A stretch of 64,000 nt of DNA from Cupriavidus basilensis. GTDB lineage: Bacteria; Pseudomonadota; Gammaproteobacteria; Burkholderiales; Burkholderiaceae. Shown here piece after piece: positions 25,534-39,446 of the stretch. Numbering within the stretch: position 1 is the stretch's first letter; the number at the start of each line of letters is the position of its first letter. Where the stretch lies: contig NZ_CP062803.1 of the NCBI RefSeq assembly GCF_008801925.2, forward strand, positions 992,001-1,056,000. The letters run 5' to 3'. Made by a program: the position numbers and the translations under genes. The notes beneath the pieces are model-generated. The model saw nothing but the letters and a program-made list of their open reading frames with translations, made no database searches and was not told the origin of the DNA.

Positions 25534-26454
25534 ATGAAATCGCAGGTCCACTCCAACCGATTTTCCCGCTGCCTGCTGGCGGTTGCCATGCTGGCTGGCA
25601 CCGCGGGCACTGTCAGCAACGCGCACGCTGCCGACGGCGATACGCTGCGCAAGATCAAGGAAACCGGCGTGATCTCGCTGGGCTATCGCGAGTCCTCCAT
25701 CCCGTTCTCCTATACCAACGGACGCGATGTGATGGGCTACTCGCACGAGATCCTGCTGCAGATCGTCGACAAGGTGAAGGCGCAAGTGCAAAACCCCAAG
25801 CTCGAGATCAAGCTGGTGCCGATCACGTCGCAGAATCGCATTTCGCTGATGCAGAACGGCACCATCGACATCGAGTGCGGCACCACCACCAACAACCTGG
25901 AGCGGCAAAAGCAGGTAGCGTTTTCCAACAGCCTGTTCGTCTACGGGCTGCGCATGCTGACCAGGAAGGATTCGGGCGTGAAAGACTTCCCGGATCTCAA
26001 GGACCGCAACGTGGTGACCACCGCTGGCACCACGGATGAGCGCCTGCTGGTCAAGATGAATGGCGAGAAGGCCATGAACATGAACCTGATCAGCGCCAAG
26101 GACCACGGGCAGTCCTTCCTGATCCTGGAGACAGGGCGCGCGGTGGCCTTCGTGATGGACGAGCCGTTGCTCTACGGCGAACTGACCAAGGCCAAGAGCG
26201 CCAATGACTGGACCGTGGTCGGCACGCCGCTGCAGACCGAGAACTACGCCTGCATGTTCCGCAAGGACGATCCGTCGTTCAAGGCACTGGCCGACGGCGT
26301 GATCGCCGACCTGATGACCAGCGGCCGTGCCGAGCAGTTGTACAAGAAGTGGTTCCAGTCGCCGATTCCGCCGCGCAACATCAACCTGAACTATCCGCTG
26401 TCGGCCGACATGAAAGATCTCTACGCCCATCCCAACGACAAGGCGTTCCAGTAA
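25534..26454 (+). CDS. Amino-acid ABC transporter binding protein (GltI-like)
   Basis: The 306-residue periplasmic protein has a signal peptide ending at AHA-ADGDT. It also has the segments of the glutamate/aspartate binding protein GltI: LGYRESSIPFSYT, GYSHEILLQIVDKVK, DIECGTTTNNLERQKQVAFS and GRAVAFVMDEPLLYGEL. Length and conserved points fit. It follows dadA by 104 bp and has AAGGAG upstream at 25519-25524. Substrate is inferred as an acidic amino acid from family resemblance, while the context suggests a compound related to D-amino acids; both remain open. Confidence 0.85.
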   Translation: MKSQVHSNRFSRCLLAVAMLAGTAGTVSNAHAADGDTLRKIKETGVISLGYRESSIPFSYTNGRDVMGYSHEILLQIVDKVKAQVQNPKLEIKLVPITSQNRISLMQNGTIDIECGTTTNNLERQKQVAFSNSLFVYGLRMLTRKDSGVKDFPDLKDRNVVTTAGTTDERLLVKMNGEKAMNMNLISAKDHGQSFLILETGRAVAFVMDEPLLYGELTKAKSANDWTVVGTPLQTENYACMFRKDDPSFKALADGVIADLMTSGRAEQLYKKWFQSPIPPRNINLNYPLSADMKDLYAHPNDKAFQ

Positions 26455-26607
26455 GCCGGGCAGGGCAGGGCGAATCGTTATTGCTGTTCGACGCGAAATT
26501 GCGCTAGGCTAAAAGCCGGCTTGCTCGCTTGGCGGACCAACGCCGGGTTGACGCTTGCCGGACCGTTGCGGACGCCGTCCGCGTCGGCTGTGCTGACTGG
26601 AGAACAT

Positions 26608-27405
26608 ATGCGATCGCTTCGTACTGGCTGTCTCAACGCCCTGTTCGCCGTTTCGCTGCTGGCGGCCGGTGCCGCCGCGCAGGCCGCCGACCTGCTCGAC
26701 ACCGTAAAGCAGGCCGGCGTGCTCAAGATCGGGCTGGAAGGCACCTATCCGCCGTTCAACTACCGGGGCAGCAATAACCAGCTGGAAGGCTTCGACGTCG
26801 ATGTGGCCAAGGGCGTGGCGGCCAAGCTGGGTGTCAAGCCGGAGTTTGTCACCACCGAGTGGAGCGGCATCATTGCCGGGCTGCAGGCCGGCAAGTTCGA
26901 CATGATCGTCAACCAGGTCGCGGTAACGCCGCAACGCAAGCAGGTGCTGGATTTCTCCACGCCTTACGTGTATTCGGCGGCGCAGCTGATCCAGCGCAAG
27001 GATGACAACCGGCAGTTCAAGTCCCTCGAGGACCTGAAAGGCAAGAAGCTCGGCGTGAGCCTGGGTAGCAACTACAACGAACTGGCCAAGTCGGTCGCCG
27101 GCATCGACGTCAAGACCTATCCGGGTGCGCCCGAATATCTGCGCGACCTGGCAGCGCAGCGGGTGGATGCCGCGCTGAACGACCGCCTGATGATCGGTTA
27201 CCTGATCAAGACGTCAAACCTGCCGCTGCGGCCCGGCGCGATTGTGGAAGGCGGCAATTCCGAGGTGGCGATCCCCTTTCGCAAGGACAATCCGAAGTTT
27301 GCACAGGCCATCGACCGCGCGCTCGACGAGATGCGCAAGGACGGCAGCCTCGGCAAGCTTTCGGCGAAGTGGTTTGGCAGCGACGTGACCAAGCCGGCCA
27401 GATAA
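26608..27405 (+). CDS. Polar amino-acid/cystine-type ABC transporter binding protein
   Basis: This is a 265-residue periplasmic binding protein of family 3 with signal peptide ending near AQA-ADLLD. Visible family segments are LKIGLEGTYPPFNYR, GFDVDVAKGVAAKLG, WSGIIAGLQAGKFDMIVNQV and PYVYSAAQLIQRKDD. These resemble FliY/TcyA cystine-binding proteins, though a general polar amino acid is also possible. The start ATG 26608 has GGAGA eight bases upstream, and upstream codons in frame lack a signal sequence. It is followed by a permease gene 30 bp downstream, so the two form a transporter unit. Confidence 0.87.
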   Translation: MRSLRTGCLNALFAVSLLAAGAAAQAADLLDTVKQAGVLKIGLEGTYPPFNYRGSNNQLEGFDVDVAKGVAAKLGVKPEFVTTEWSGIIAGLQAGKFDMIVNQVAVTPQRKQVLDFSTPYVYSAAQLIQRKDDNRQFKSLEDLKGKKLGVSLGSNYNELAKSVAGIDVKTYPGAPEYLRDLAAQRVDAALNDRLMIGYLIKTSNLPLRPGAIVEGGNSEVAIPFRKDNPKFAQAIDRALDEMRKDGSLGKLSAKWFGSDVTKPAR

Positions 27406-27435
27406 GCGCGGGCACGCCTTTCGCCAGGGCTTTCC

Positions 27436-28095
27436 ATGTCCGCTCTCCAACTCGTTGCCGCATCGCTGCCCGTGCTGCTGCAGGGCATGCTGCTGACCAT
27501 CAAGTTCGCGCTGCTGTCGATGATCTTCGGGCTGGTGATCGGCACCGTGGTGGCGTTGATGGGCATCAGCCACCAGGCCGTGCCGAAGGCCATCGCGCGG
27601 ACCTACGTCAGCATCATGCGCGGCACGCCGCTGCTGGTGCAGATCTTCGTGGTGTATTACGGCTTGCCCGGCATCGGCATCGCGCTGGAACCCACCCCGG
27701 CGGGCGTGTTGACGCTGAGCCTGAACGTAGGGGCGTATCTCTCGGAGAGCATGCGCGGCGCCATCCTCGGCATCCCGCGCGGGCAGTGGCTGGCGGCTTA
27801 CAGCCTGGGCCTGACGCAAGGCCAGACCTTGCGCTACGTGGTCGGCCCCCAGGCGCTGCGGCTGGCGGTGCCGAGCCTGTCGAACAGCCTGATCAGCCTG
27901 ATCAAGGACACCTCGCTGGTGTCTGTGATCACGGTGACCGAGCTGCTGCGCACGGCGCAGGAGGTGATTGCCGCGACCTACCAGCCGTTGCCGCTTTATC
28001 TTGCCGTGGCTGCTATTTATTGGATGCTTAGTACGGCGCTGGCGCATGTGCAGCGGTTGTTGGAGAGGAGGCTGTCGTTGCCGGGGAGGCATTAG
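27436..28095 (+). CDS. Amino-acid ABC transporter permease (HisM/TcyB-like)
   Basis: The 219-residue inner-membrane permease has about five hydrophobic helices, the family entry segment LLQGMLLTIKFALLS, TYVSIMRGTPLLVQIF, and an EAA-like loop SLGLTQGQTLRYVVGPQALR. Length is standard. It is the last gene of the unit. The expected ATPase gene (GlnQ/TcyC type) is absent: the stop is followed by a G-run and a dispersed repeat with an IS insertion. The permease may borrow an ATPase from elsewhere, or the ATPase gene was lost at this breakpoint. Confidence 0.88.
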   Translation: MSALQLVAASLPVLLQGMLLTIKFALLSMIFGLVIGTVVALMGISHQAVPKAIARTYVSIMRGTPLLVQIFVVYYGLPGIGIALEPTPAGVLTLSLNVGAYLSESMRGAILGIPRGQWLAAYSLGLTQGQTLRYVVGPQALRLAVPSLSNSLISLIKDTSLVSVITVTELLRTAQEVIAATYQPLPLYLAVAAIYWMLSTALAHVQRLLERRLSLPGRH

Positions 28096-28130
28096 GGGGG
28101 GGAGGGGGGGATTTGGGCGGCGGTGGTTTT

Positions 28131-28260
28131 TGGACCCAAATGCCGTACGACATCCCCCTGCGGGGTTGGTCGCTGTTTGTTTGAGCGGTGATGGCGCTTG
28201 CACCCAAAAGCCATACGACATCCCCCTGCGGGGGCTGCCGGTCACTCTTCTTTGCGTCGG
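28131..28260. repeat. Dispersed repeat, copy A, left part
   Basis: Two tandem modules with period 68 bp (starting at 28131 and 28199) each contain ACCCAAA, then TACGACATCCCCCTGCGGGG. After them comes the palindrome arm TCTTCTTTGC at 28246-28255. The unit continues on the far side of the IS at 29542. An inverted second copy is at 30052-30232. Such units look like REP/BIME-type intergenic repeats. Confidence 0.8.
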
Positions 28261-29541
28261 TGTATAGACCGGGGACATAGGTGACGGGTGTGCGAGGACA
28301 TGGTTGACACTTTCGGGCAATGAATCTGCCCGGAATCCGACCATGCCTTGGAGCACGCGCGACACCATGAGCCTTCGTCAAGAATTCATCCTTCTGGCCC
28401 AGCAAGAGGGCAGCAATCGCCGCGAGTTATGCCGGCGTTTCAGCATCAGTCCCCAGACCGCCTACAAATGGCTCGCGCGCTATGCCGAGCAAGGCGAGGC
28501 CGGTCTGGTCGACCGCTCTCGGCGGCCCAGTCGCAGCCCGGAACAGACCCACGCCGACCTTGAACAGGCCGTGATCGCGCTTCGCCAGCAGCATCCTGCC
28601 TGGGGCGGGCGCAAGATCAGCCGCCGCTTGCAGGACCTGGGGCATACCGAGGCGCCGGCTCCCAGCACTGTCACCTCGATCCTGCATCGCCACGGGCTAA
28701 TTACCCCGGAGGCCTCCGCCAAATCGGTGGCATGGCAGCGTTTCGAGCATCCCGAGCCCAACCATCTCTGGCAAATGGACTACAAAGGCTGGTTTGCCAC
28801 CCGAGACGGCGTGCCGTGTTACCCGCTGACAGTGCTGGACGACCATTCCCGCTTCAATATCCTGCTCACGGCCTGCACCAGAACCCAGACTGCAGTGGTG
28901 CAGCGCCATCTGCGCGAGGCTTTCCGTCGTTATGGGCTGCCGCTGCGCATCAACGCCGACAACGGTGCGCCCTGGGGCAGCCCTTCCCAACCCGGCCAGC
29001 TCACGGCCCTGGCGATCTGGTTGATTCGCCTGGGCGTACGCCTGAGCCATAGCCGCCCCGCGCACCCACAAACCAATGGCAAGGATGAGCGGTTCCACCG
29101 CACCTTTAAGGCCGAGGTGCTCACCGGCAACGACTTTGCTTCCTGCCGTTATGCGCAGCGCGCATTCGATCGCTGGCGCGATGTCTACAACCAGCAGCGA
29201 CCTCACGAAGCCCTTGGCCTGGCGACGCCCGTCACGCGGTATCGGCCCAGCCCGAGGCCATATCCGGAGCAGTTGCCGCCCATCGAATACGGCCCTGACG
29301 ACACCGTAGTGCAGGTCAAATGGCACGGCGAGCTCTGTTTCCAGGGACGTCGCTTCAAGGTTTCGAATGCCCTAGCCAAGCTGCACGTGGCGCTGCGGCC
29401 TGACGCCAGACACAGCGGCAAATACGCCCTTTACTTCGCACATCATCGCTTCGGAAGCATCGACCTAAACGACCCGAATGCCGCTTAAAATGTGTCAACC
29501 ATGTCCTCGCACATGTGTCACCCATGTCCCCGGTCTATACA
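28261..29541 (+). mobile_element. Intact IS481-family insertion sequence, 1281 bp
   Basis: The ends are inverted repeats of 50 bp, identical at 46 positions, beginning TGTATAGACCGGGGACAT (28261-28310 and 29492-29541, the latter inverted). The element is flanked by a 6-bp direct repeat CGTCGG (28255-28260 and 29542-29547), the target duplication. One full-length transposase gene fills it. Intact ends, duplication and ORF indicate recent insertion. The family is assigned from the transposase. Confidence 0.93.
28343..29488 (+). CDS. IS481-family transposase
   Basis: The 381-residue DDE transposase has an N-terminal helix-turn-helix region (QQEGSNRRELCRRFSISPQTAYKW, about residues 20-45). A catalytic rve core follows, with the first aspartate in LWQMDYKGWF, the second in RINADNGAPW and the glutamate in GKDERFHRTFK. 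The C-terminus has the IS481-type YNQQRPHEAL. The ATG at 28343 is 82 bp inside the left end. No frameshift or stop is seen, so the element may be active. It catalyses cut and strand transfer at the 50-bp inverted repeats. Confidence 0.93.
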   Translation: MPWSTRDTMSLRQEFILLAQQEGSNRRELCRRFSISPQTAYKWLARYAEQGEAGLVDRSRRPSRSPEQTHADLEQAVIALRQQHPAWGGRKISRRLQDLGHTEAPAPSTVTSILHRHGLITPEASAKSVAWQRFEHPEPNHLWQMDYKGWFATRDGVPCYPLTVLDDHSRFNILLTACTRTQTAVVQRHLREAFRRYGLPLRINADNGAPWGSPSQPGQLTALAIWLIRLGVRLSHSRPAHPQTNGKDERFHRTFKAEVLTGNDFASCRYAQRAFDRWRDVYNQQRPHEALGLATPVTRYRPSPRPYPEQLPPIEYGPDDTVVQVKWHGELCFQGRRFKVSNALAKLHVALRPDARHSGKYALYFAHHRFGSIDLNDPNAA

Positions 29542-30051: not shown

Positions 30052-30232
30052 GATTGCTCTGCTCCCGGCAGGGTCGGCTTTCTTCTCGTTAGTCTTCTTT
30101 GCCGACGCAAAGAAGAGTGACCGGCATCCCCCGTAGGGGGATGTCGTATGGCCCTTGGGTCCAAAAACCAACGCCGCTTAAAGAAACAGCGACCAACCCC
30201 GCACAGCGATGTCGTACGGTTCTTGGGTACAA
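30052..30232. repeat. Dispersed repeat, copy B (inverted relative to copy A)
   Basis: Read on the minus strand, this uninterrupted copy has the same two TACGACAT modules. It then has the palindrome TCTTCTTTGC-GTCG-GCAAAGAAGA and the GCCGACCCTGCCGGG tail. It differs from copy A by scattered substitutions, for example TCGCTGTG in place of TCCCCCTG in one module. Copies A and B thus form a long inverted repeat around the IS and spacer. Confidence 0.8.
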
Positions 30233-30314: not shown

Positions 30315-32885
30315 TCACCCCTGAGCAATCCTCTGCTCAATATGCGCCAGCGCCTCCTCCACCTGATCCACCAAAATCAAGCAAAGATCCCCCGGCTGCA
30401 AATGCGACAACGCGGTATCGATAGCAAGGAACTCCCCACGGATCTCTTCCACCGCGCTGGCGCGCTTCGCGCCCTCCAGGCCTTCGCGCAGCAGGGCCAG
30501 CACTTCGCCGTCCTCGCGTCCGCGCTGGCACTGGTCCTGATACAGGATCACTTCGTCGAACACATCGCCAAGGATCTCCGTCTGGCGGCGGATATCGACG
30601 TCGCGGCGGTCGCCGGCGCCGCTGATCACCACCGAACGGCGCTCGGCCGGCATGCTCTCGATGGCGTTGCACAGCGCCTGGATCGCATCCGGGTTGTGGC
30701 CGTAGTCGGCGATCAGCGTCGCGCCCTTGTAGTCGAACACGTTGAAGCGGCCGGGGGCGGTGGCTGCATCGTTGACGAAGGTCGCCAGGCCGCGGCGGAT
30801 CACTTCCCAGTCGATGCCCAGCGCCCACGCTGCCGCGGTGGCGGACATGGCGTTCTCGACCTGGAAGCCGATCGAGCCGCCGCGCGTCAGCGGAATGCTC
30901 GACAGCGCGATGCGCACCTGGTTCTCGCCTTCGGCGGCCACGATATGGCCATCCTCGACGTACACCACGCGCTTGCCCTGCGCGCAGTGCGTGGCCATCA
31001 CGGGGTTGTTGAGGTCGGCCGCGAAGAACGTCACGGCGCCCGGGCAGGCGTCGGCCATGCGTACCACCATGGGGTCCGCGGCATTGAGCACGGCCATGCC
31101 GTGCGGTGCCACGTTCTGCACGATGACGCTTTTCAGCACGGCGAGGTCTTCCACAGTGCTGATAAAGGACAGCCCGAGGTGATCGCCTTCGCCCACATTG
31201 GTGACCACCGCCACGTCGCAGCGGTCGAAGGCCAGGCCTTCGCGCAGCAGGCCGCCGCGCGCGGTCTCGAACACGGCGGCGTCCACGTCGGGGTGCATCA
31301 GCACATTGCGGGCGCTGCGCGGGCCGCTGCAGTCGCCGGTATCGATGCGCTCGCCCTTGACGTAGACACCGTCGGTGCCGGTCATGCCGATGCGCAGGCC
31401 GCTGCCGGCCAGCAGGTGGGCAATCAGGCGGACCGTGGTGGTCTTGCCGTTGGTGCCGGATACCGCCACCACGGGGATGCGGCCATCGTCGCCGTCGCCG
31501 AACATCGTGGAGATGATGGCCTCGCCCACGGCACGGCCCTTGCCGTAGGAGGGTTGCAGGTGCATGCGCAGGCCCGGTGCGGCATTGACTTCGACAATGC
31601 CGCCGGCTTGTTCCTCGAACGGCTTGAGCACGGTCTCGCAGACCGCGTCGACGCCGCAGATGTCCAGGCCAACCATGCGCGCGGCCGCCACGGCGCGGGC
31701 TGCCATGTCCGGGTGCACATCGTCGGTGACGTCCGTCGCGCTGCCACCGGTGGACAGGTTAGCGTTATTGCGCAGCACCACGCGGGTGCCCTTGGGCGGC
31801 ACCGCATCCGCGGTGAGATTCTGCTTGGCCAGCGTGGCCAGCGCGATATCGTCAAAGCGGATCTTGGTCAGCGAGGTGGCGTGTCCCTCGCCGCGGCGCG
31901 GGTCGCGATTCACTTCCTCGACCAGTTGGCGCACGGTGTGCTTGCCATCGCCGGTGACCTGGGGCGGATCGCGTCGGGCCGCGGCGACCAGGTGGTTGCC
32001 CACCACCAGCAGGCGGAAATCGTGGCCGGGAATATAGCGCTCGACGATCACGTCGGAGCTGATCTCGGCGGCGACTTCATAGGCGGCGATGACTTCCTCG
32101 CGGGTGCGGATGCGCACCGCCACGCCTTTGCCCTGATTGCCGTCGCGCGGCTTGACCACCACCGGCGCACCGATTTCCTGCGCGGCGGCCCAGGCTTCGT
32201 CGGGGTCCGAGACGGAGCGGCCCATCGGCACCGGCACGCCGGCGGCGTGCAGCAGCTTCTTGGTGAGTTCCTTGTCTTGCGCGATCGATTCCGAGACCGC
32301 GCTGGTCATGTCTGTTTCGGCGGCCTGGATGCGGCGTTGCTTGCTGCCCCAGCCGAACTGGACCATGCTGCCTTGCGTCAGGCGGCGATACGGAATGCCG
32401 CGCGCCACGCCCGCATGGACGATGGAGCCGGTGCTCGGCCCCAGGCGCACGTCTTCGTCGAACTCGCGCAGGCGATGCAGCGCATCGGCCAGGTCGAACG
32501 GCATGTCGTCGCGTGCGGCGCGGCACAGCGCGGCGGCCAGTTCCATCGCCAGCTTGCCGACTTCTTCCTCGCTGTACTGCACCACCACCTGGTAGGTGCC
32601 GGGTTCGACGGTGGGTGCGGTGCGGCTGAAGCTGACCGGGCAGCCGGCCTCCGCTTGCAGGCGCATGGCCGCGCATTCGAGCGCGTGCGCCAGCGACACC
32701 ACGCCTTCGTTGTCATCGGGCCGCAGCGGGCCTACCTCGGGAAAGCGCGCGCGCAGGCGCTCTTCAAAACCGGGCAGCTGTGCCAGCGTGTGGGCCTCGT
32801 CGGAGCAAGAAACGATGGCTTCGATGGCGGTGTGGCGGCACCACAGGTTAGGGCCACGCAGGGCCCGGATACGTGAGACTTCCAT
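30315..32885 (-). CDS. cphA: Cyanophycin synthetase, second copy
   Basis: CphA polymerises aspartate and arginine into the storage polymer cyanophycin in the cytoplasm, using two ATP-dependent active sites. In this 856-residue copy the ATP-grasp domain spans about 210-460 (VVVKPRDGNQGKGVAVRI, IVEVNAAPGLRMHL). The Mur-ligase domain has the P-loop GTNGKTTT at 477-484. The start is placed at ATG 32885, giving MEVSRIRALRGPN, with AAGGA upstream. It begins 20 bp after the stop of the first copy, so the two are one operon. Burkholderiaceae commonly carry such a pair (cphA and cphA'). Both ATP sites look intact, unlike the shortened CphA2 type. Confidence 0.93.
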   Translation of the reverse strand: MEVSRIRALRGPNLWCRHTAIEAIVSCSDEAHTLAQLPGFEERLRARFPEVGPLRPDDNEGVVSLAHALECAAMRLQAEAGCPVSFSRTAPTVEPGTYQVVVQYSEEEVGKLAMELAAALCRAARDDMPFDLADALHRLREFDEDVRLGPSTGSIVHAGVARGIPYRRLTQGSMVQFGWGSKQRRIQAAETDMTSAVSESIAQDKELTKKLLHAAGVPVPMGRSVSDPDEAWAAAQEIGAPVVVKPRDGNQGKGVAVRIRTREEVIAAYEVAAEISSDVIVERYIPGHDFRLLVVGNHLVAAARRDPPQVTGDGKHTVRQLVEEVNRDPRRGEGHATSLTKIRFDDIALATLAKQNLTADAVPPKGTRVVLRNNANLSTGGSATDVTDDVHPDMAARAVAAARMVGLDICGVDAVCETVLKPFEEQAGGIVEVNAAPGLRMHLQPSYGKGRAVGEAIISTMFGDGDDGRIPVVAVSGTNGKTTTVRLIAHLLAGSGLRIGMTGTDGVYVKGERIDTGDCSGPRSARNVLMHPDVDAAVFETARGGLLREGLAFDRCDVAVVTNVGEGDHLGLSFISTVEDLAVLKSVIVQNVAPHGMAVLNAADPMVVRMADACPGAVTFFAADLNNPVMATHCAQGKRVVYVEDGHIVAAEGENQVRIALSSIPLTRGGSIGFQVENAMSATAAAWALGIDWEVIRRGLATFVNDAATAPGRFNVFDYKGATLIADYGHNPDAIQALCNAIESMPAERRSVVISGAGDRRDVDIRRQTEILGDVFDEVILYQDQCQRGREDGEVLALLREGLEGAKRASAVEEIRGEFLAIDTALSHLQPGDLCLILVDQVEEALAHIEQRIAQG

Positions 32886-32905
32886 GAAATCAGTTTCCTT
32901 GCGGA

Positions 32906-35542
32906 TCAGGCGCGGCGGCCCGGTTGGCCCATCCACTGGTGCACCAGGTCGATCGTCGGCAGGGTCGTTGCCTCATCGCATTGCAGGACCAGCAGGTCGC
33001 CGGCCACCACTTGCGCGAGCGCGGCCTCGATCGCCTGGCGGCGCGAGCCCTCGTCGATGATCTTGGTCACGCGGCGGCCTTCATACAGGCCCTGCTTGAG
33101 CAGCGCGCGTGCCTCGGCGTCCGGCAGCGCGCGCTTGACGGAAGTGTCTTCGCACAGGAAGACGCGGTCGAACGCGGCGCCCAGCACCTTGCCTTGCTTG
33201 ACCATGTCTTCGTCGCGGCGCGGCGCGCCGGCGCCGTACACGACCACGCGACGCTCGCTCGGGAAGCGTTCCAGCGATGCCACCAGCGCTTCCAGCGCGG
33301 GCGCATTGTGGGCGTCGTCGACCACCACGATGGCGCCGTTGCGCTCGAACAGCGTGAAGCGTCCTGGCACATCCACCTGGCCTACATCGAATGTCACCAC
33401 GCCAGCACGGATCAGGTCGTTGGAGATGCCCAGCGCCCAGCCGGTGGCCACGGCCGCCAGCACGTTCTCGACCTGGAAGGCCACGCGGCCCGCATAGGTG
33501 AGGGGGATCGCGGCGACATCGGCCAGCGGCACCTCGCGGCTGCCGGTGGCGAGCACCACCTTGCCGTCGCGCACGTAGACCGCGCGGCGGCCCGCCGCGC
33601 GATGCGCGGCAATGGCGGGCAGGTCGGCCGTCATGCCGAAGAAGATCACGTCGCCATCGCACAGCTCCGCCATCTCCACGACCAGCGGGTCGCGCGCGTT
33701 GAGCACCGCCACGCCGCCGTCCAGCACCACGTCGACCTGGGTGCGCAGCACGCTGTACATCTTCTCGACTTCCTCGACGTAATACTGGCCAAGGTGGTCG
33801 GGTACATCGATATTGGTCACTACGCCGACCTGGCAACGGTCGTAGGCGAGGCCTTCGGACAAGATTGCGCCGCTGTCGTTCTCGATCACGGCGGCATCCA
33901 CCGCGCGATTCATCAGGATGCGGCGGGCTGCGTCCCAGTTGGCGCGGTCGCCGCCCTGCACCTGGCGGCGGTCCAGGTAGAGGCCGTCGCTGCAAGCCAG
34001 GCCGGTGTGCTTGCCCGAGAGCTGCAGCAGGCGCGCGACCAGCTTGGCCACCACGGTCTTGCCGTTGGTGCCGGTGATGCCGACCACGGGTATGCGGCCG
34101 TTGTCGTCGCCTTCGCCAGCCGGGAACAGGTGATCCACCACGGCACGGCCCACCGGGCGGGCTTCACCGTTGGAGGGCTTCAGGTGCATCAGCAGGCCGG
34201 GGCCGGCATTGACCTCGACAATGGCGCCGCGCTGCTCGGCGAGCGGGCGCGAAATGTCCTGCGCCACCAGGTCGACGCCGGCGATGTCCAGGCCCACGAT
34301 GCGGGCGGCCAGCGAGGCATGCGCGGCCACGCTCGGGTGCACGCGGTCGGTCACGTCGAAGGCCACATTGCCGTTGCGCTGGATCAGCACATGCTTGCCC
34401 TCGGGCGGTACGGAAGTGGCGTCAAAGCCCTGGCGCTTGAGTTCCAGGCGCGCGGCCGAATCCAGCCTTACCTTGTTGAGCGGGTGGTCTTCGGTGCTGC
34501 CGCGGCGCGGGTCGGAATTGATCTGCGATTCGATCAGCTCGTCGATGGTTGACTTGCCGTCGCCGGTCACGCTGGCGGTTTCGCCCATGGCGGCGGCCAC
34601 CAGGCGGCCGCCCACCACCAGCAGGCGGTGTTCATTGCCCAGCACAAAGCGCTCGACGATGACGCCGCTGCCTTCATCGATGGCGACGCCGTAGGCGGTC
34701 TCGACTTCTTCGCGCGTGGTCAGGTTGGTGAACACGCCGCGGCCGTGGTTGCCGTCGTAGGGCTTGACCACCACCGGCAGGCCGATGTCCTCGGCGGCGT
34801 CCCAGGCGTCGGCGGCGCTTTCCACCAGCCGGCCTTCGGGCACGGGCACGCCGCAGGATTCCAGCAGGCTCTTGGTCAGGTCCTTGTCGCGCGAGATGCT
34901 CTCGGCAATGGCGGCGGTGCGGTCGGTCTCTGCGGTCCAGATGCGGCGCTGGCGGCTGCCATAGCCGAGTTGCACCAGGTTGCCCTCGGACAGGCGCAGC
35001 GCCGGGATGTCGCGGTCGTCGGCTGCGTCGACGATGCAGGCAGTGCTCGGGCCCAGGCAGTGCTTGTCCACCAGGCGGCGAAGGTGATCCACCGTCTCCT
35101 GGACGTCATAGGGGCGGTCTTCGATGGCGGCCATCACCAGGTCGCGGGCGGCGAACAGGGCGGCACGGGTGACATCCTCGTGCCAGGCCCGCACGATCAC
35201 CTTGTAGACACCCCGGATCGGGGTCTCGCGCGCCTTGCCGAAGCCGCCGGGCATGCCCGCGAGGTTCTGCAGCTCAAGCGTGACGTGTTCCAGGATGTGG
35301 CCAGGCCACGTGCCGTCCTTGAGCCGCTGCAGGAAGCCGCCGCGCTCGCCGATACTGCAGCGATGCTCGACCAGCGAGGGCAGCCATGCCGACAGGCGCT
35401 CGTAGAACCCCGGAATCTTGTTGGAGGGAAAATCCTCCAGTTCCCCGATATCGACCCACGCCTCCAGCACAGGCCGATATGTCCACATATTCGGGCCGCG
35501 CAGCGACATGACATCGAAAATCTCAATGTCCTTCTTTTTCAT
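32906..35542 (-). CDS. cphA: Cyanophycin synthetase, first copy
   Basis: The 878-residue enzyme is colinear with the second copy: an N-terminal domain (MSLRGPNMWTYRPVLE), an ATP-grasp domain at about 225-475 (VVVKPYDGNHGRGVFTNL, IVEVNAGPGLLMHLKPS), and a Mur-ligase domain with GTNGKT at 491-496 and VVDDAHNAPALEALV in its last third. It adds Asp to the backbone and Arg to side chains. Whether both copies form a heteromer or work separately cannot be told from sequence. It is the first gene of the operon; the divergent ABC transporter starts 240 bp away. Divergence between the copies is substantial, so duplication is old. Confidence 0.95.
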   Translation of the reverse strand: MKKKDIEIFDVMSLRGPNMWTYRPVLEAWVDIGELEDFPSNKIPGFYERLSAWLPSLVEHRCSIGERGGFLQRLKDGTWPGHILEHVTLELQNLAGMPGGFGKARETPIRGVYKVIVRAWHEDVTRAALFAARDLVMAAIEDRPYDVQETVDHLRRLVDKHCLGPSTACIVDAADDRDIPALRLSEGNLVQLGYGSRQRRIWTAETDRTAAIAESISRDKDLTKSLLESCGVPVPEGRLVESAADAWDAAEDIGLPVVVKPYDGNHGRGVFTNLTTREEVETAYGVAIDEGSGVIVERFVLGNEHRLLVVGGRLVAAAMGETASVTGDGKSTIDELIESQINSDPRRGSTEDHPLNKVRLDSAARLELKRQGFDATSVPPEGKHVLIQRNGNVAFDVTDRVHPSVAAHASLAARIVGLDIAGVDLVAQDISRPLAEQRGAIVEVNAGPGLLMHLKPSNGEARPVGRAVVDHLFPAGEGDDNGRIPVVGITGTNGKTVVAKLVARLLQLSGKHTGLACSDGLYLDRRQVQGGDRANWDAARRILMNRAVDAAVIENDSGAILSEGLAYDRCQVGVVTNIDVPDHLGQYYVEEVEKMYSVLRTQVDVVLDGGVAVLNARDPLVVEMAELCDGDVIFFGMTADLPAIAAHRAAGRRAVYVRDGKVVLATGSREVPLADVAAIPLTYAGRVAFQVENVLAAVATGWALGISNDLIRAGVVTFDVGQVDVPGRFTLFERNGAIVVVDDAHNAPALEALVASLERFPSERRVVVYGAGAPRRDEDMVKQGKVLGAAFDRVFLCEDTSVKRALPDAEARALLKQGLYEGRRVTKIIDEGSRRQAIEAALAQVVAGDLLVLQCDEATTLPTIDLVHQWMGQPGRRA

Positions 35543-35782
35543 TGATTTAGCTTGAGGCAGTGGGCGAGTGCCCGAGAAATAGAAGCCTAACCTTTCAGTA
35601 ACGTTACAACGGTCAGCCGGTTGACTTTCTTGATTAAAAAGCGATTGTGCAGTGCATCAGGGACGCCCGTGTGTTTGGCCTTATGTATACTGCGGGCAAA
35701 TCGGCGGGCCGCCAGGGCGCGCCCGCGCTAAATTGTTTCAAGTTATGTCCATAGCCCAAGGACGCAGCATGCCGTATCAACG

Positions 35783-38068
35783 ATGACCCAACCTTCCTTG
35801 CCCGTGATTGACAGCGACGCCCACAACGAGCCGTGGCGTAACGAACTCGGCACCCGCCTGCAAGCTGGCGAAGCCGTGCTTGCCTGGCTCGAAGTCGACC
35901 TTGACGCAAAGCTGCATTTTACCCAAGGCTGGGTACTTGTGACGGATCGTCGCTTGCTGGCGCGCATGCCGGGGCAAAAAGACTGGCAGGAATGGGCGAT
36001 CCAGCCCGGATTATCGCTGCATCACGCCGATCATGCGGGGGTTGGCACGCTGGAGTTGCAAGACAACGGGCGATTGCTGGCCAGTTGGCGCTATACGCTG
36101 GGCCACAATCCGGCCGCGTTGCGCCTGATCGACCAGTTCCACGCGCAGCGCGACCTGTCGGCCTCGGGCCGGGCCGGCCAGCTGGATCTGGATGCCGAAG
36201 CGGTCTGCCCGACCTGCAAGGCCCCGCTGCCCCCGGACGACGACCAGTGCCCACAATGCAGCCGTGACCTGGAAACGCCGCCGTCGACCTGGGCACTATT
36301 GCGCCTGTGGCGGTTTGCCCGGCCGTACCGCTTCCAGTTGCTGGCCGGTTTCCTGCTGACGCTGCTGTCCACCGCCGCGACGCTGGTGCCGCCGTACCTG
36401 ACCATGCCGTTGATGGACAACGTGCTGATTCCCTACCAGAACGGGCTGCCCATCGATTACGACCGGGTCAAGCTGTACCTGGCCGGGCTGCTGGGTGCGG
36501 CGCTGGTGGCATGGAGCCTTGGCTGGGCTCGCACCTATCTGCTGGCGCGGGTGTCCGAGCGCATCGGCGCGGACCTGCGCACGACCACCTACGAGCACCT
36601 GCTGCGCCTGTCGCTGGAGTACTTCGGCGGCAAGCGCACGGGCGACCTGATGGCCCGTATCGGCTCGGAAAGTGATCGCATCTGCGTGTTTCTGTCGCTA
36701 CATCTACTGGATTTCGCTACCGACGTGCTGATGATCGTCATGACGGCGGCCATCCTGATTTCGATCAACCCGTGGCTGGCGCTGGTGACCCTGGTGCCGC
36801 TGCCGTTCATCGCATGGATGATTCACCTGGTGCGCGACCGGCTGCGCCACGGCTTCGAGAAGATCGACCGGATCTGGTCGGAGATCACCAACGTGCTGGC
36901 CGATACCATCCCGGGCATCCGCGTGGTCAAGGCCTTCGCGCAGGAAAAGCGCGAAGTGGAGCGCTTCCGCGAAGCTAACCGGCACAACCTGGCGATCAAT
37001 GACCGGGTCAACGCGGTGTGGTCGCTCTTCACCCCGACCGTCACGCTGCTGACCGAGATCGGCTTGCTGGTGGTGTGGATCTTCGGTATCTGGCAGGTCT
37101 CGCACAACGCGATCACGGTCGGCGTACTGGTGGCCTTCCTCACCTATATCAGCCGCTTCTATACACGCCTGGATTCGATGAGCCGCATCGTCTCTGTCAC
37201 GCAGAAGGCCGCCGCGGGCGCCAAGCGCATCTTCGATATCCTCGATCACGTCTCGAGCGTGCCGGAACCCACGCGGCCGGTGCACCTGGAGCGTGTCGAG
37301 GGCGCCATCGAGCTGCGCGACCTGGGCTTCCGCTATGGCAACCGTGCCGTGATCCGCGGGCTCAACCTGTCGATCGCGCCGGGCGAGATGATTGGCCTGG
37401 TGGGGCACAGCGGGTCGGGCAAGAGCACGCTGGTCAACCTGATCTGCCGCTTCTACGACGTCTCCGAAGGCGCGATCCGGCTGGACGGCGTCGATATCCG
37501 CTCGCTGCCGGTCTCGGAGTTCCGCAGCCATATCGGGCTGGTGCTGCAGGAACCGTTCCTGTTCTTTGGCACGATTGCCGAGAACATTGCCTACGGCAAG
37601 CCGGGTGCTTCGCGCGAAGAGATCATCGCCGCGGCGCGCGCCGCCCATGCGCACGAGTTCATCCTGCGCCTGCCGCACGGCTACGACTCTCTCGTGGGCG
37701 AGCGCGGGCAGGCGCTGTCCGGCGGCGAGCGCCAGCGTATCTCCATCGCTCGCGCGCTGCTGATCAACCCGCGCATCCTGATCATGGACGAGGCCACCTC
37801 GTCGGTGGATACGACGACGGAGAAGGAAATCCAGAAGGCGCTGGATAACCTGGTGCAAGGCCGCACCACCATCGCCATCGCCCACCGCCTGTCCACGCTG
37901 CGCAAGGCAGACCGACTGGTGGTAATGGATCGCGGACGGATCGTGGAGGTTGGCAACCACGATGAGTTGCTGGCGCGCGAAGGCGCCTACTACAAGCTCT
38001 ACCAGGCGCAGGCCCGCAATGTCGATGCCGACGCGGATCTTACCTCCGCCGATGCGGTCAACGTGTAA
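35783..38068 (+). CDS. Cyanophycin-associated ABC transporter with N-terminal PH-like domain and zinc ribbon
   Basis: The 761-residue protein has three parts. Residues ~25-120 (WVLVTDRRLLARM and surroundings) look like a bacterial PH-like fold. Residues 142-159 form a zinc ribbon with C142, C145, C156 and C159. The rest is a fused exporter: about six membrane helices at 180-470, then a nucleotide-binding domain with Walker A GHSGSGKS at 541-548, LSGGERQRISIARALL and Walker B ILIMDEATSSVD. It is divergent from the cphA pair and is followed by a DUF1854 gene. I recall this pairing being linked to cyanophycin loci, but the transported substrate is unknown. TATACT at 35686-35691 may be its -10. 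Confidence 0.88.
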   Translation: MTQPSLPVIDSDAHNEPWRNELGTRLQAGEAVLAWLEVDLDAKLHFTQGWVLVTDRRLLARMPGQKDWQEWAIQPGLSLHHADHAGVGTLELQDNGRLLASWRYTLGHNPAALRLIDQFHAQRDLSASGRAGQLDLDAEAVCPTCKAPLPPDDDQCPQCSRDLETPPSTWALLRLWRFARPYRFQLLAGFLLTLLSTAATLVPPYLTMPLMDNVLIPYQNGLPIDYDRVKLYLAGLLGAALVAWSLGWARTYLLARVSERIGADLRTTTYEHLLRLSLEYFGGKRTGDLMARIGSESDRICVFLSLHLLDFATDVLMIVMTAAILISINPWLALVTLVPLPFIAWMIHLVRDRLRHGFEKIDRIWSEITNVLADTIPGIRVVKAFAQEKREVERFREANRHNLAINDRVNAVWSLFTPTVTLLTEIGLLVVWIFGIWQVSHNAITVGVLVAFLTYISRFYTRLDSMSRIVSVTQKAAAGAKRIFDILDHVSSVPEPTRPVHLERVEGAIELRDLGFRYGNRAVIRGLNLSIAPGEMIGLVGHSGSGKSTLVNLICRFYDVSEGAIRLDGVDIRSLPVSEFRSHIGLVLQEPFLFFGTIAENIAYGKPGASREEIIAAARAAHAHEFILRLPHGYDSLVGERGQALSGGERQRISIARALLINPRILIMDEATSSVDTTTEKEIQKALDNLVQGRTTIAIAHRLSTLRKADRLVVMDRGRIVEVGNHDELLAREGAYYKLYQAQARNVDADADLTSADAVNV

Positions 38069-38085
38069 TAAGGATGGGAGCCCAC

Positions 38086-38556
38086 ATGCAGCAAGTCGAT
38101 TTCAAGCTCTCCCGCAATGCCCTTGGCCGCCTGGCGATGACCACGGCGGATGGTGTCGTGCATGATGGTGTCGTTCCCGTGCGCGCCTTCCCCATCGCCG
38201 CGCCCGACGATGGTGTCGGCCTCGTCAGCGCCGATGGCCGCGAGCTGGCCTGGCTGCCTCGCCTGGATACCTTGCCCGCCCCGGTGCGCGAGATGATCGA
38301 GGCCGAACTGGCCAGCCGTGAATTCATGCCGGAGATCCGCCGCATCCGGTCGGTGTCGACCTACGCCACCCCCAGCACCTGGGAGGTGGAGACGGATCGT
38401 GGCCTCACGTCGCTGGTGCTGCGCGGCGAGGAAGACATTCGCCGCCTCGCCGGCTCCAAGCTGCTGATCTCCGACAGCCATGGCATCCATTACCTGGTGC
38501 GCAACCTGGCTAGCCTGGACAAGGGCAGCCGCAAGATCCTTGATCGCTTTCTCTAA
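38086..38556 (+). CDS. DUF1854 protein associated with the cyanophycin ABC transporter
   Basis: The 156-residue soluble protein matches the DUF1854 type (LSRNALGRLAMT at the N-terminus, IRRIRSVSTYATPSTWEVETDRG centrally, LLISDSHGIHYLVRNLASLD near the end). Translation probably starts at ATG 38086, with GGGAG five bases upstream. The ATG at 38074 would put the AGG directly against the start codon. It lies 17 bp after the ABC transporter gene and is surely co-transcribed. No catalytic motif is evident; a partner role to the transporter or to cyanophycin handling is inference from the conserved context. Confidence 0.85.
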   Translation: MQQVDFKLSRNALGRLAMTTADGVVHDGVVPVRAFPIAAPDDGVGLVSADGRELAWLPRLDTLPAPVREMIEAELASREFMPEIRRIRSVSTYATPSTWEVETDRGLTSLVLRGEEDIRRLAGSKLLISDSHGIHYLVRNLASLDKGSRKILDRFL

Positions 38557-38564
38557 GCTGCGCT

Positions 38565-39446
38565 TCAGAGCTTGCCAGTGAAGATCACCCCGACCTGGCG
38601 GTCGGGGCGCATCGCAAACAGGTAGATCTGGCCGGGCGTGGGCAAGCTATGCGTGGTGGTGGGGTCGTAGTAAGCGATGCCGCTCATGGGTGTGTTCGCG
38701 TAAGTGCAACTCGGCCCAGTCAGCTGCAGGGCGACGTTGTAGACCTTGCCCTGGCGCCGCGGCGTAGCGGTCCCGGTAAAGCTGCAGCCCGAGCTGCTGC
38801 CGTCTAGCGTGAGGTTGCCGCTGGCGTCGATGGAAAGCCTTACCGCACCCGCCTTGATTCCGGTCGTGTCGATGACGTTCGACGTGCCGTAGTAAGTCCC
38901 CTTCAGGCCGTCGGTGGTCGCGATGAAGTTGTAGTCGGTGCTGTAGGTGGCATTGACGACCGTGCTCTTGCCGTTGCGGTAGGTGACCTGCGCCTGGATC
39001 GACTTGCCCGGCACGTAGGCTGCCATCAGGTTCGCTGCGGTCAGGCTGTAGCCCGCCGCCTCCTGATTGAAATCCAGGCCGTTGTTATTGGTGGTGAGCG
39101 CGCCGCTGCCCGAGCTGTAGTTGCCGGTCAGGACTCCCTCCGATACGTCCGGTATGCCCGCCGTCGCGTAGAAGGCGTAATAGACGTTCTCGTCCAACAC
39201 CAGGATGTTGAACCGCTCGCCTGCGGCAGAGTTGCCGATGTAGAAGCCGGAGCCGAGCGCGATGGTGTCGGGTGCTGCCGGGATCACCGGGGTCGTCGGG
39301 GTTGTCGGTGTCGTAGGTGTTGTAGGTGTCGTGGGTGTGGCGGCGGGAGGCGTGCGCACAATCGCCAGTCCGTCACTGTTGTCGCCCGATCCGCCACAGC
39401 CTGCGAGGGCCAGCGCTATGCTTGCAGCCCCAATGAGTTTCTTCAT
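38565..39446 (-). CDS. Putative lipoprotein with a Thr-Pro repeat linker
   Basis: The 293-residue product has a short signal peptide with lipobox LAGC and lipidated C17. A linker of repeated T-T-P units follows (residues 37-53), then a beta-rich, glycine/asparagine/serine-rich domain of about 230 residues (for example GSGFYIGNSAAGERF, DGLKGTYYGTSNVID). I recognise no named domain. A surface-exposed or periplasmic beta-structure is likely. The gene ends 8 bp from the convergent DUF1854 gene. The repeat linker could vary in length between strains. Confidence 0.75.
   Translation of the reverse strand: MKKLIGAASIALALAGCGGSGDNSDGLAIVRTPPAATPTTPTTPTTPTTPTTPVIPAAPDTIALGSGFYIGNSAAGERFNILVLDENVYYAFYATAGIPDVSEGVLTGNYSSGSGALTTNNNGLDFNQEAAGYSLTAANLMAAYVPGKSIQAQVTYRNGKSTVVNATYSTDYNFIATTDGLKGTYYGTSNVIDTTGIKAGAVRLSIDASGNLTLDGSSSGCSFTGTATPRRQGKVYNVALQLTGPSCTYANTPMSGIAYYDPTTTHSLPTPGQIYLFAMRPDRQVGVIFTGKL
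39288..39338. repeat. Tandem repeat coding for the Thr-Thr-Pro linker
   Basis: About five 9-bp units (consensus GTCGTAGGTG-like on the plus strand, with T/C and G/A variants) lie inside the lipoprotein gene and encode residues 37-53. The period is divisible by three, so slippage would alter linker length and leave the frame intact. Confidence 0.75.

Follow-up and report, generated by a model that had tools for sequence, protein, structure and literature searches.

Two genes of the cyanophycin synthetase (CphA) family in Cupriavidus basilensis lie head to head with genes for an ATP-binding cassette (ABC) transporter and a DUF1854 protein, within a 64,000-nucleotide stretch of DNA that we analysed as a whole and call the window (contig C1 of the 8.94 Mb genome G000). 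The four genes almost certainly form one functional unit, and they may act as a single machine, found mostly in beta-proteobacteria, for the synthesis, cutting and probable export of a cyanophycin-type polymer. The transporter/DUF1854 pair occupies the place that a clustered cyanophycinase takes elsewhere, a relation that appears new; the active sites are divided between the two synthetases in a complementary way, a split that, judged from the aligned residues, also appears new; and the transporter carries the fold and ATPase motifs of an exporter. Together, these data suggest that in C. basilensis and many relatives the polymer may be exported or cut rather than simply stored. The features of the unit are as follows.

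30315..32885, minus strand: cphA copy A, 856 amino acids from the conserved ATG (32885), putative chain-elongating synthetase; no cutting site in the N domain, His267 replaced by Gln in the G-loop (GNQGKG), Arg458 present, intact Mur-ligase (M) domain
32906..35542, minus strand: cphA copy B, 878 amino acids; N-domain Cx19HxxEH intact, His267 kept, Arg458 to Leu, ETARGG, DYAHN and GDRRD motifs of the M domain altered
35543..35782: divergent intergenic region of 240 bases, the gap between copy B and the transporter
35783..38068, plus strand: ABCB-type exporter half-transporter, 761 amino acids, NF052233; Pfam stretches at 186-459 (transmembrane region) and 525-673 (ATPase domain)
35870..36172, plus strand: PH-like N-terminal domain of the transporter, residues ~30-130
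36206..36259, plus strand: CPxC...CPxC zinc-ribbon-like motif of the transporter, residues 142-159
38074..38556, plus strand: DUF1854 protein, 160 amino acids, NF052234/PF08909; starts 5 bases past the transporter stop

The longest open frame of copy A spans 30315-32936 with a GTG start at 32936, and the conserved ATG lies at 32885. The two CphA-family genes scored 1270.5 and 1282.7 bits against NF010623 (cyanophycin synthetase, cut-off 877). The other two proteins lay far above the cut-offs of their own families, at 1473.5 bits for NF052233 ('cyanophycin metabolism-associated ABC transporter', cut-off 880) and 233.5 bits for NF052234 ('cyanophycin metabolism-associated DUF1854 family protein', cut-off 150). 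Frames and NCBIfam matches bear out the four genes, their coordinates and the head-to-head placement of the cphA pair (minus strand) and the ABC transporter/DUF1854 pair (plus strand), all first described in a reading of this DNA from its letters and open frames, here called the sequence-only reading. The association of the transporter/DUF1854 pair with cyanophycin genes is not new, as the NCBI family names already record it; the names give association only, neither function nor mechanism. The sequence-only reading had missed those names, along with the split active sites and the missing cyanophycinase. Any publications behind NF052233 and NF052234 apart, the literature searched yielded no split synthetase and no link of the transporter or DUF1854 to cyanophycin, nor did we find DUF1854 mentioned in it. 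A consensus scan for a sigma-70-type promoter in the intergenic region (35543..35782) returned no site.

The transporter pair travels with CphA

Two sets of genomes were surveyed, a phylum sample of 397 and an order sample of 300. In the phylum sample, where the search for the transporter covered the 38 genomes carrying CphA or DUF1854, CphA was present in 37/397 genomes and PF08909 in 27/397 (26 strong matches and one marginal, G304), and each of the 26 genomes with a strong match held both CphA and the transporter. In the order sample, CphA was found in 111/300 genomes and the transporter in 102 of these 111, with none in the 189 CphA-negative genomes (Fisher p ~3e-70, kinship ignored); the nine CphA genomes in which it is absent all come from two genera. 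All transporter-positive genomes were thus also CphA-positive (102/102 and 26/26), a link far beyond chance. The sequence-only reading had tied the pair to cyanophycin, and had proposed that finding it mostly without cphA would speak against the tie; for the transporter the survey showed the reverse. The tie is looser for DUF1854, as the broader PF08909 family also occurs without CphA, marginally in G304 and in a DUF1854-like protein of Sulfolobus acidocaldarius (control set, PF08909 match) that falls under the NF052234 cut-off and argues against universality.

Gene order was examined at named loci, the best 80 of 580 relatives, among which the nearest to the window's is that of Cupriavidus basilensis OR16 (DUF1854 95 % identical). 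All four genes were visible at 72/80 loci, the remaining eight being truncated by contig ends. At five of the 72 the order was ABC-DUF1854-B-A with all genes co-directional, and the later-fetched L183 is one more such case. The B-A pair and the ABC-DUF1854 pair were both kept in G563, G544, G514 and G571 although they are unlinked there (hundreds of kb apart or on different contigs). Copy A is broken into two frames in L126, and in L132 just part of it is open. No further conserved family was found near the unit, the widest reaching 6/22 genus groups (simple open frames; groups hand-assigned).

The transporter pair stands in the place of cyanophycinase

We scored cyanophycinase as a TIGR02069 match over its cut-off, with 80/93 new CphA genomes covered in the order sample. 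It was present in 2/26 transporter genomes versus 11/11 CphA genomes without the transporter in the phylum sample, and in 4/71 versus 9/9 in the order sample. Combined, this gives 6/97 CphA genomes with the transporter and 20/20 without (Fisher p ~1e-17, kinship ignored). In 19 of the 20 transporter-free genomes the cyanophycinase gene lies within a few kb of cphA, the exception being G465, where it is on another contig. None of the six in transporter genomes adjoins the four-gene unit: that of G240 is in a second locus (L082), and the rest lie on a different contig or at a distance of over 150 kb. For the wider family PF03575, 22/26 transporter genomes showed no S51 peptidase at E 1e-5. The possibility that G000 holds a cyanophycinase elsewhere was rejected: TIGR02069 gave no match there at E 1e-5, and the only S51 peptidase of the genome scores 317 bits as PepE and matches TIGR02069 just weakly and in part (20.5 bits). 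A mirror relation of this kind between cyanophycinase and the transporter pair was not found in the literature searched. Known cphA-cphB storage loci likewise hold CphA inside a small conserved cluster; here, unlike there, the cluster contains an ABC exporter and DUF1854 and the cyanophycinase is absent.

The second locus of G240 (L082:4600-11850) holds a cyanophycinase followed by a CphA that is convergent with a second CphA. Both of these CphA proteins are without an intact N site and have Gln at 267 (loop ANQGKG).

These counts meet a recorded puzzle. Beta-proteobacteria make up 903 of 1,614 CphA1 genomes in PMC10206079, with a recognisable cyanophycinase in 2.8 %, which is called unanticipated there (statements on cited papers, here and below, refer to excerpts of them), and its absence from this group is also described in PMC5178258 and PMC5670224.

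Active sites are split between the two synthetases

To compare the synthetases, 97 A copies and 98 B copies were scored (frames of at least 600 amino acids, window's copies included) at the N site (C59/H79/E82/H83), H267, R309, R458 and D585/H586, residues taken from PMC9262961 and PMC9427784. A comparison group (n=15) consisted of 13 CphA genes from loci without the transporter plus two shorter frames resembling Mur ligases. The N site was present in 11/13 of these CphA genes, both exceptions coming from L082. Of nine CphA genes from transporter-free genomes of the same order, the eight complete ones show all sites, and the ninth is truncated. Beside canonical cphA in such genomes (L164, L166-L172) we observed a second Mur-ligase-like gene with frames of 572-720 amino acids.

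Copies A and B have lost different sites. In A, the N site Cx19HxxEH was lost in 96/97 and intact only in L070, and R309, R458 and all scored M residues (P-loop, Asp585-His586, C lobe) were kept in 97/97. In B, all four N-site residues were present in 98/98 and H267 in 96/98, and R458 was retained in none (Leu in 97, Met in one), nor was the Arg of ETARGG (0/98). The C-terminal lobe of the M domain was missing in 58/98 B copies, only one of which (L068) is cut by a contig end. Copies fetched later (5 A, 6 B) agreed, except that the A of L183 has His267 and the B of L182 has Glu at 458. The 'two complete cyanophycin synthetases' of the sequence-only reading are therefore both full length in the window and differ in their catalytic residues in a complementary way, and redundancy of two complete enzymes was rejected on this ground.

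In G117, which lies outside the class of the window's genome, the transporter pair adjoins a single visible CphA (L070:6281-11782). This protein has the N site, Arg458 and the scored M residues intact but carries GNQGKG, and the contig ends inside the gene.

Mean orthologue identity (1,500 sampled pairs) was 0.73 for A and 0.54 for B in the M core, 0.64 and 0.69 in the N domain, and 0.75 and 0.71 in the G domain. In a tree of 98 N+G sequences (quick maximum-likelihood, SH-aLRT, midpoint root), B formed one group (100), A without L070 another (99) and the other CphA genes a third (99), with L183 the first branch within A. Because the site patterns are conserved across copies and A and B group separately, the split is, as far as aligned sequences can tell, an old and stable division of labour and not decay in one genome; overall we regard a division of labour between A and B as probable.

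Both copies share the N-G-M plan of CphA1 (solved as 7lg5, 7wac, 7lgm and 7lgn) over their full length, with NF010623 over cut-off. They are unlike CphA1 in that there all sites sit in one chain, whereas here the N site is missing from A, whose loop reads GNQGKG, and Arg458 from B, whose M motifs are altered; GNHGRG occurs in all five distinct solved CphA1 sequences (one a near-copy of another). The cyanobacterial CphA2 is not known to have a working Arg-adding domain. Copy B resembles it in that its Arg-adding domain appears degenerate, and the M domain is presumably dead. Identity of copy B with a cyanobacterial-type CphA2 was rejected, as CphA2 is described as being without the N-domain motif (PMC9262961) and copy B has it in 98/98. 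Among CphA1 sequences reduced to 70 % non-redundancy, 17 % are likewise without the complete N motif (PMC9262961), so copy A would be a primer-dependent CphA1 type at most.

A catalytically dead copy B could also serve as a regulatory or scaffold subunit of copy A, with the exporter carrying the polymer. Such paralogues often turn into scaffolds, and the loss of Arg458 in every scored B copy and the decayed M-domain motifs fit this role; the four N-site residues kept in 98/98 would be needless for a mere scaffold, and we consider it improbable.

The transporter has the architecture of an exporter

The transporter combines ABC_membrane and ABC_tran in a single chain, the ABCB-type exporter architecture, and aligns with TM288 over ~570 residues. 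Like MsbA, TM287/288 and P-glycoprotein it has a transmembrane region and an ATPase domain; what sets it apart is the PH-like domain at its N-terminus, the zinc-ribbon-like motif and the partner gene for DUF1854. Across 26 aligned orthologues, conservation extends over the Walker A, signature, Walker B and H-loop stretches, and four of the 26 (L056, L063, L066 and L068) lack the CPxC...CPxC motif. The PH-like domain is a fold match from a confident predicted model. The N-terminus that had been singled out as unusual from the sequence is thus indeed so, comprising the PH-like domain (~30-130) and the CPxC...CPxC motif (142-159).

The sequence-only reading had offered import, export and granule sensing as options. 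A few exporter-fold proteins do act as importers, and the PH-like domain could bind a granule. Nevertheless, import of Asp/Arg or beta-Asp-Arg is made unlikely by the ABCB-type exporter fold in one chain and by a conserved unit without a binding-protein gene, and a pure granule sensor is made unlikely by the ATPase motifs conserved in the 26 orthologues; taken together we give the two very little credence. Because of the ABCB-type exporter architecture, the conserved ATPase motifs and the PH-like N-terminal domain, the transporter looks likelier to be a pump than a sensor or importer. Of the three options, export is the one we tentatively prefer.

ABCB exporters take a broad range of substrates, and the pump might move an unrelated one (lipid, glycolipid or drug), its linkage to cphA being physiological only. 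The best NCBIfam match beyond its own family is MsbA (474 bits), and foreign cyanophycin accumulates in R. eutropha (PMC11362209), both consistent with this idea. It is hard to reconcile with the absence of the transporter from all 189 CphA-negative genomes of the order and with the four genomes that keep both pairs unlinked, and we rate it as improbable as the scaffold. Transmembrane charges were not used as cargo evidence: Asp310 (26/26) and Glu425 (25/26) fall at mostly uncharged positions in five other exporters of G000, but the segments had been located by eye, and conservation extends to basic residues as well.

The transporter and DUF1854 genes overlap or lie within 20 bases of each other in 82/102 loci (start codons script-assigned). 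In Cupriavidus basilensis OR16 (L084:7700-10483) the two share one 927-codon frame, either a fusion or a draft-contig frameshift. A hydrolase role for DUF1854 was rejected, as its invariant columns hold no catalytic motif (by eye) and fold matches were unconvincing.

A proposed machine and its strongest rival

We propose that copy A elongates the chain, adding Asp through its ATP-grasp domain and Arg through its intact Mur-ligase domain, and that it would be unable to make its own primers. Copy B would be a synthetase turned cutter, in which the zinc-peptidase-like N site, the one known to cleave cyanophycin, is kept and Asp binding and Arg addition are degraded; cooperating with A, it would supply primers and limit chain length. 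The exporter may dock the chain or its oligomers through the PH-like/zinc-ribbon domain and DUF1854 and pump them from the cytoplasm, replacing the usual cyanophycinase. There is precedent for such a split: in a published experiment an N domain acted in trans from a chain with inactive G and M sites, and a single enzyme with both activities cannot balance them through expression (PMC9262961); here the genes are separate.

Because an ABCB exporter travels with the synthetase pair in the place of cyanophycinase, export of polymer or oligomers is the simplest reading of its role, one we hold at a little under an even chance. The whole scheme of a split synthetase and cutter coupled to an exporter is slightly less secure, though it is the one we favour. 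In its most specific form it is distinctly more tentative: a builder and a cutter subunit would make short (beta-Asp-Arg)n chains, which the ABC exporter with its PH-like receiving domain and DUF1854 would secrete, so that the polymer would not, or not only, be stored in the cytoplasm. R. eutropha (Cupriavidus necator) H16, with two CphA homologues, is reported to make no detectable cyanophycin (PMC8560796 and PMC11362209, both citing Adames 2013), which fits export.

Several observations weigh against this proposal. The H267A change inactivates the G site of a cyanobacterial enzyme (PMC9262961), and position 267 is Gln in all 97 A copies, so the G domain of A may be impaired; against this, the residue is Gln rather than Ala, and L183, a basal A copy, retains His. 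A simply G-dead copy A is therefore a possibility that we did not adopt, given L183 and the high conservation of the G domain (0.75). For copy B, six combined M-domain residues are all present in the 40/98 that have the C lobe, the window's included, and the well-conserved G domain (0.71) suggests that B may do more than cut. An over-cut-off cyanophycinase is found somewhere in 6/97 transporter genomes, and three more (G455, G488 and G544) have TIGR02069 matches under the cut-off. For DUF1854 no fold could be assigned; a fold comparison gave no convincing match, and a PH-like one for residues 84-160 was equivocal. In E. coli, too, the H16 genes reportedly yielded no cyanophycin (PMC8560796); this would count against export if A and B were co-expressed without the pump, because polymer should then accumulate, and the passage of that paper does not state co-expression. 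Finally, a foreign synthetase makes cyanophycin in R. eutropha H16 derivatives (PMC11362209), implying that this polymer is not cleared by the native pump, provided that the pump is expressed.

The strongest rival is that the polymer stays an internal store and copy B is its depolymerase, the missing beta-proteobacterial cyanophycinase, with the pump doing something else: ABC/DUF1854 might export a by-product or tether granules to the membrane. The N-domain peptidase site kept in 98/98 B copies suits this as well as it suits our proposal. Isoaspartyl dipeptidases, found in 70.9 % of the 903 beta-proteobacterial CphA1 genomes (PMC10206079 Table 2), would finish degradation inside the cell, and the authors of that paper themselves propose unknown cyanophycinase isozymes. 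On the other side, cleavage by the N site studied in a cyanobacterial enzyme is slow and internal (PMC9262961), and a depolymerase leaves unexplained a dedicated exporter kept wherever the complete synthetase pair is seen. We consider this rival rather unlikely, yet well ahead of the others.

In the proposal of a split synthetase coupled to an exporter, two puzzles gain testable candidates: copy B as the missing chain-cutter of beta-proteobacteria, which have CphA with almost no cyanophycinase, and export, hence no accumulation, in R. eutropha H16 with its two homologues. If it is true, cyanophycin is more than a storage granule.

Neighbourhood of the unit in the window

Upstream, at 25534-28095, lie genes for a glutamate/aspartate-type binding protein, a cystine-like binding protein and an amino-acid ABC permease, which are absent from the list of widely conserved neighbours of the unit. 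After DUF1854, on the opposite strand (38565-39446), is a gene whose product begins like a lipoprotein, contains a Pro-Thr repeat and has no NCBIfam match. Between the amino-acid ABC transporter genes and the cyanophycin unit sits an IS481-family transposase gene (28304-29488; NF033577, 293.6 bits), flanked by an inverted repeat of 131 bases, 85 % complementary (28130-28260 / 30102-30232).

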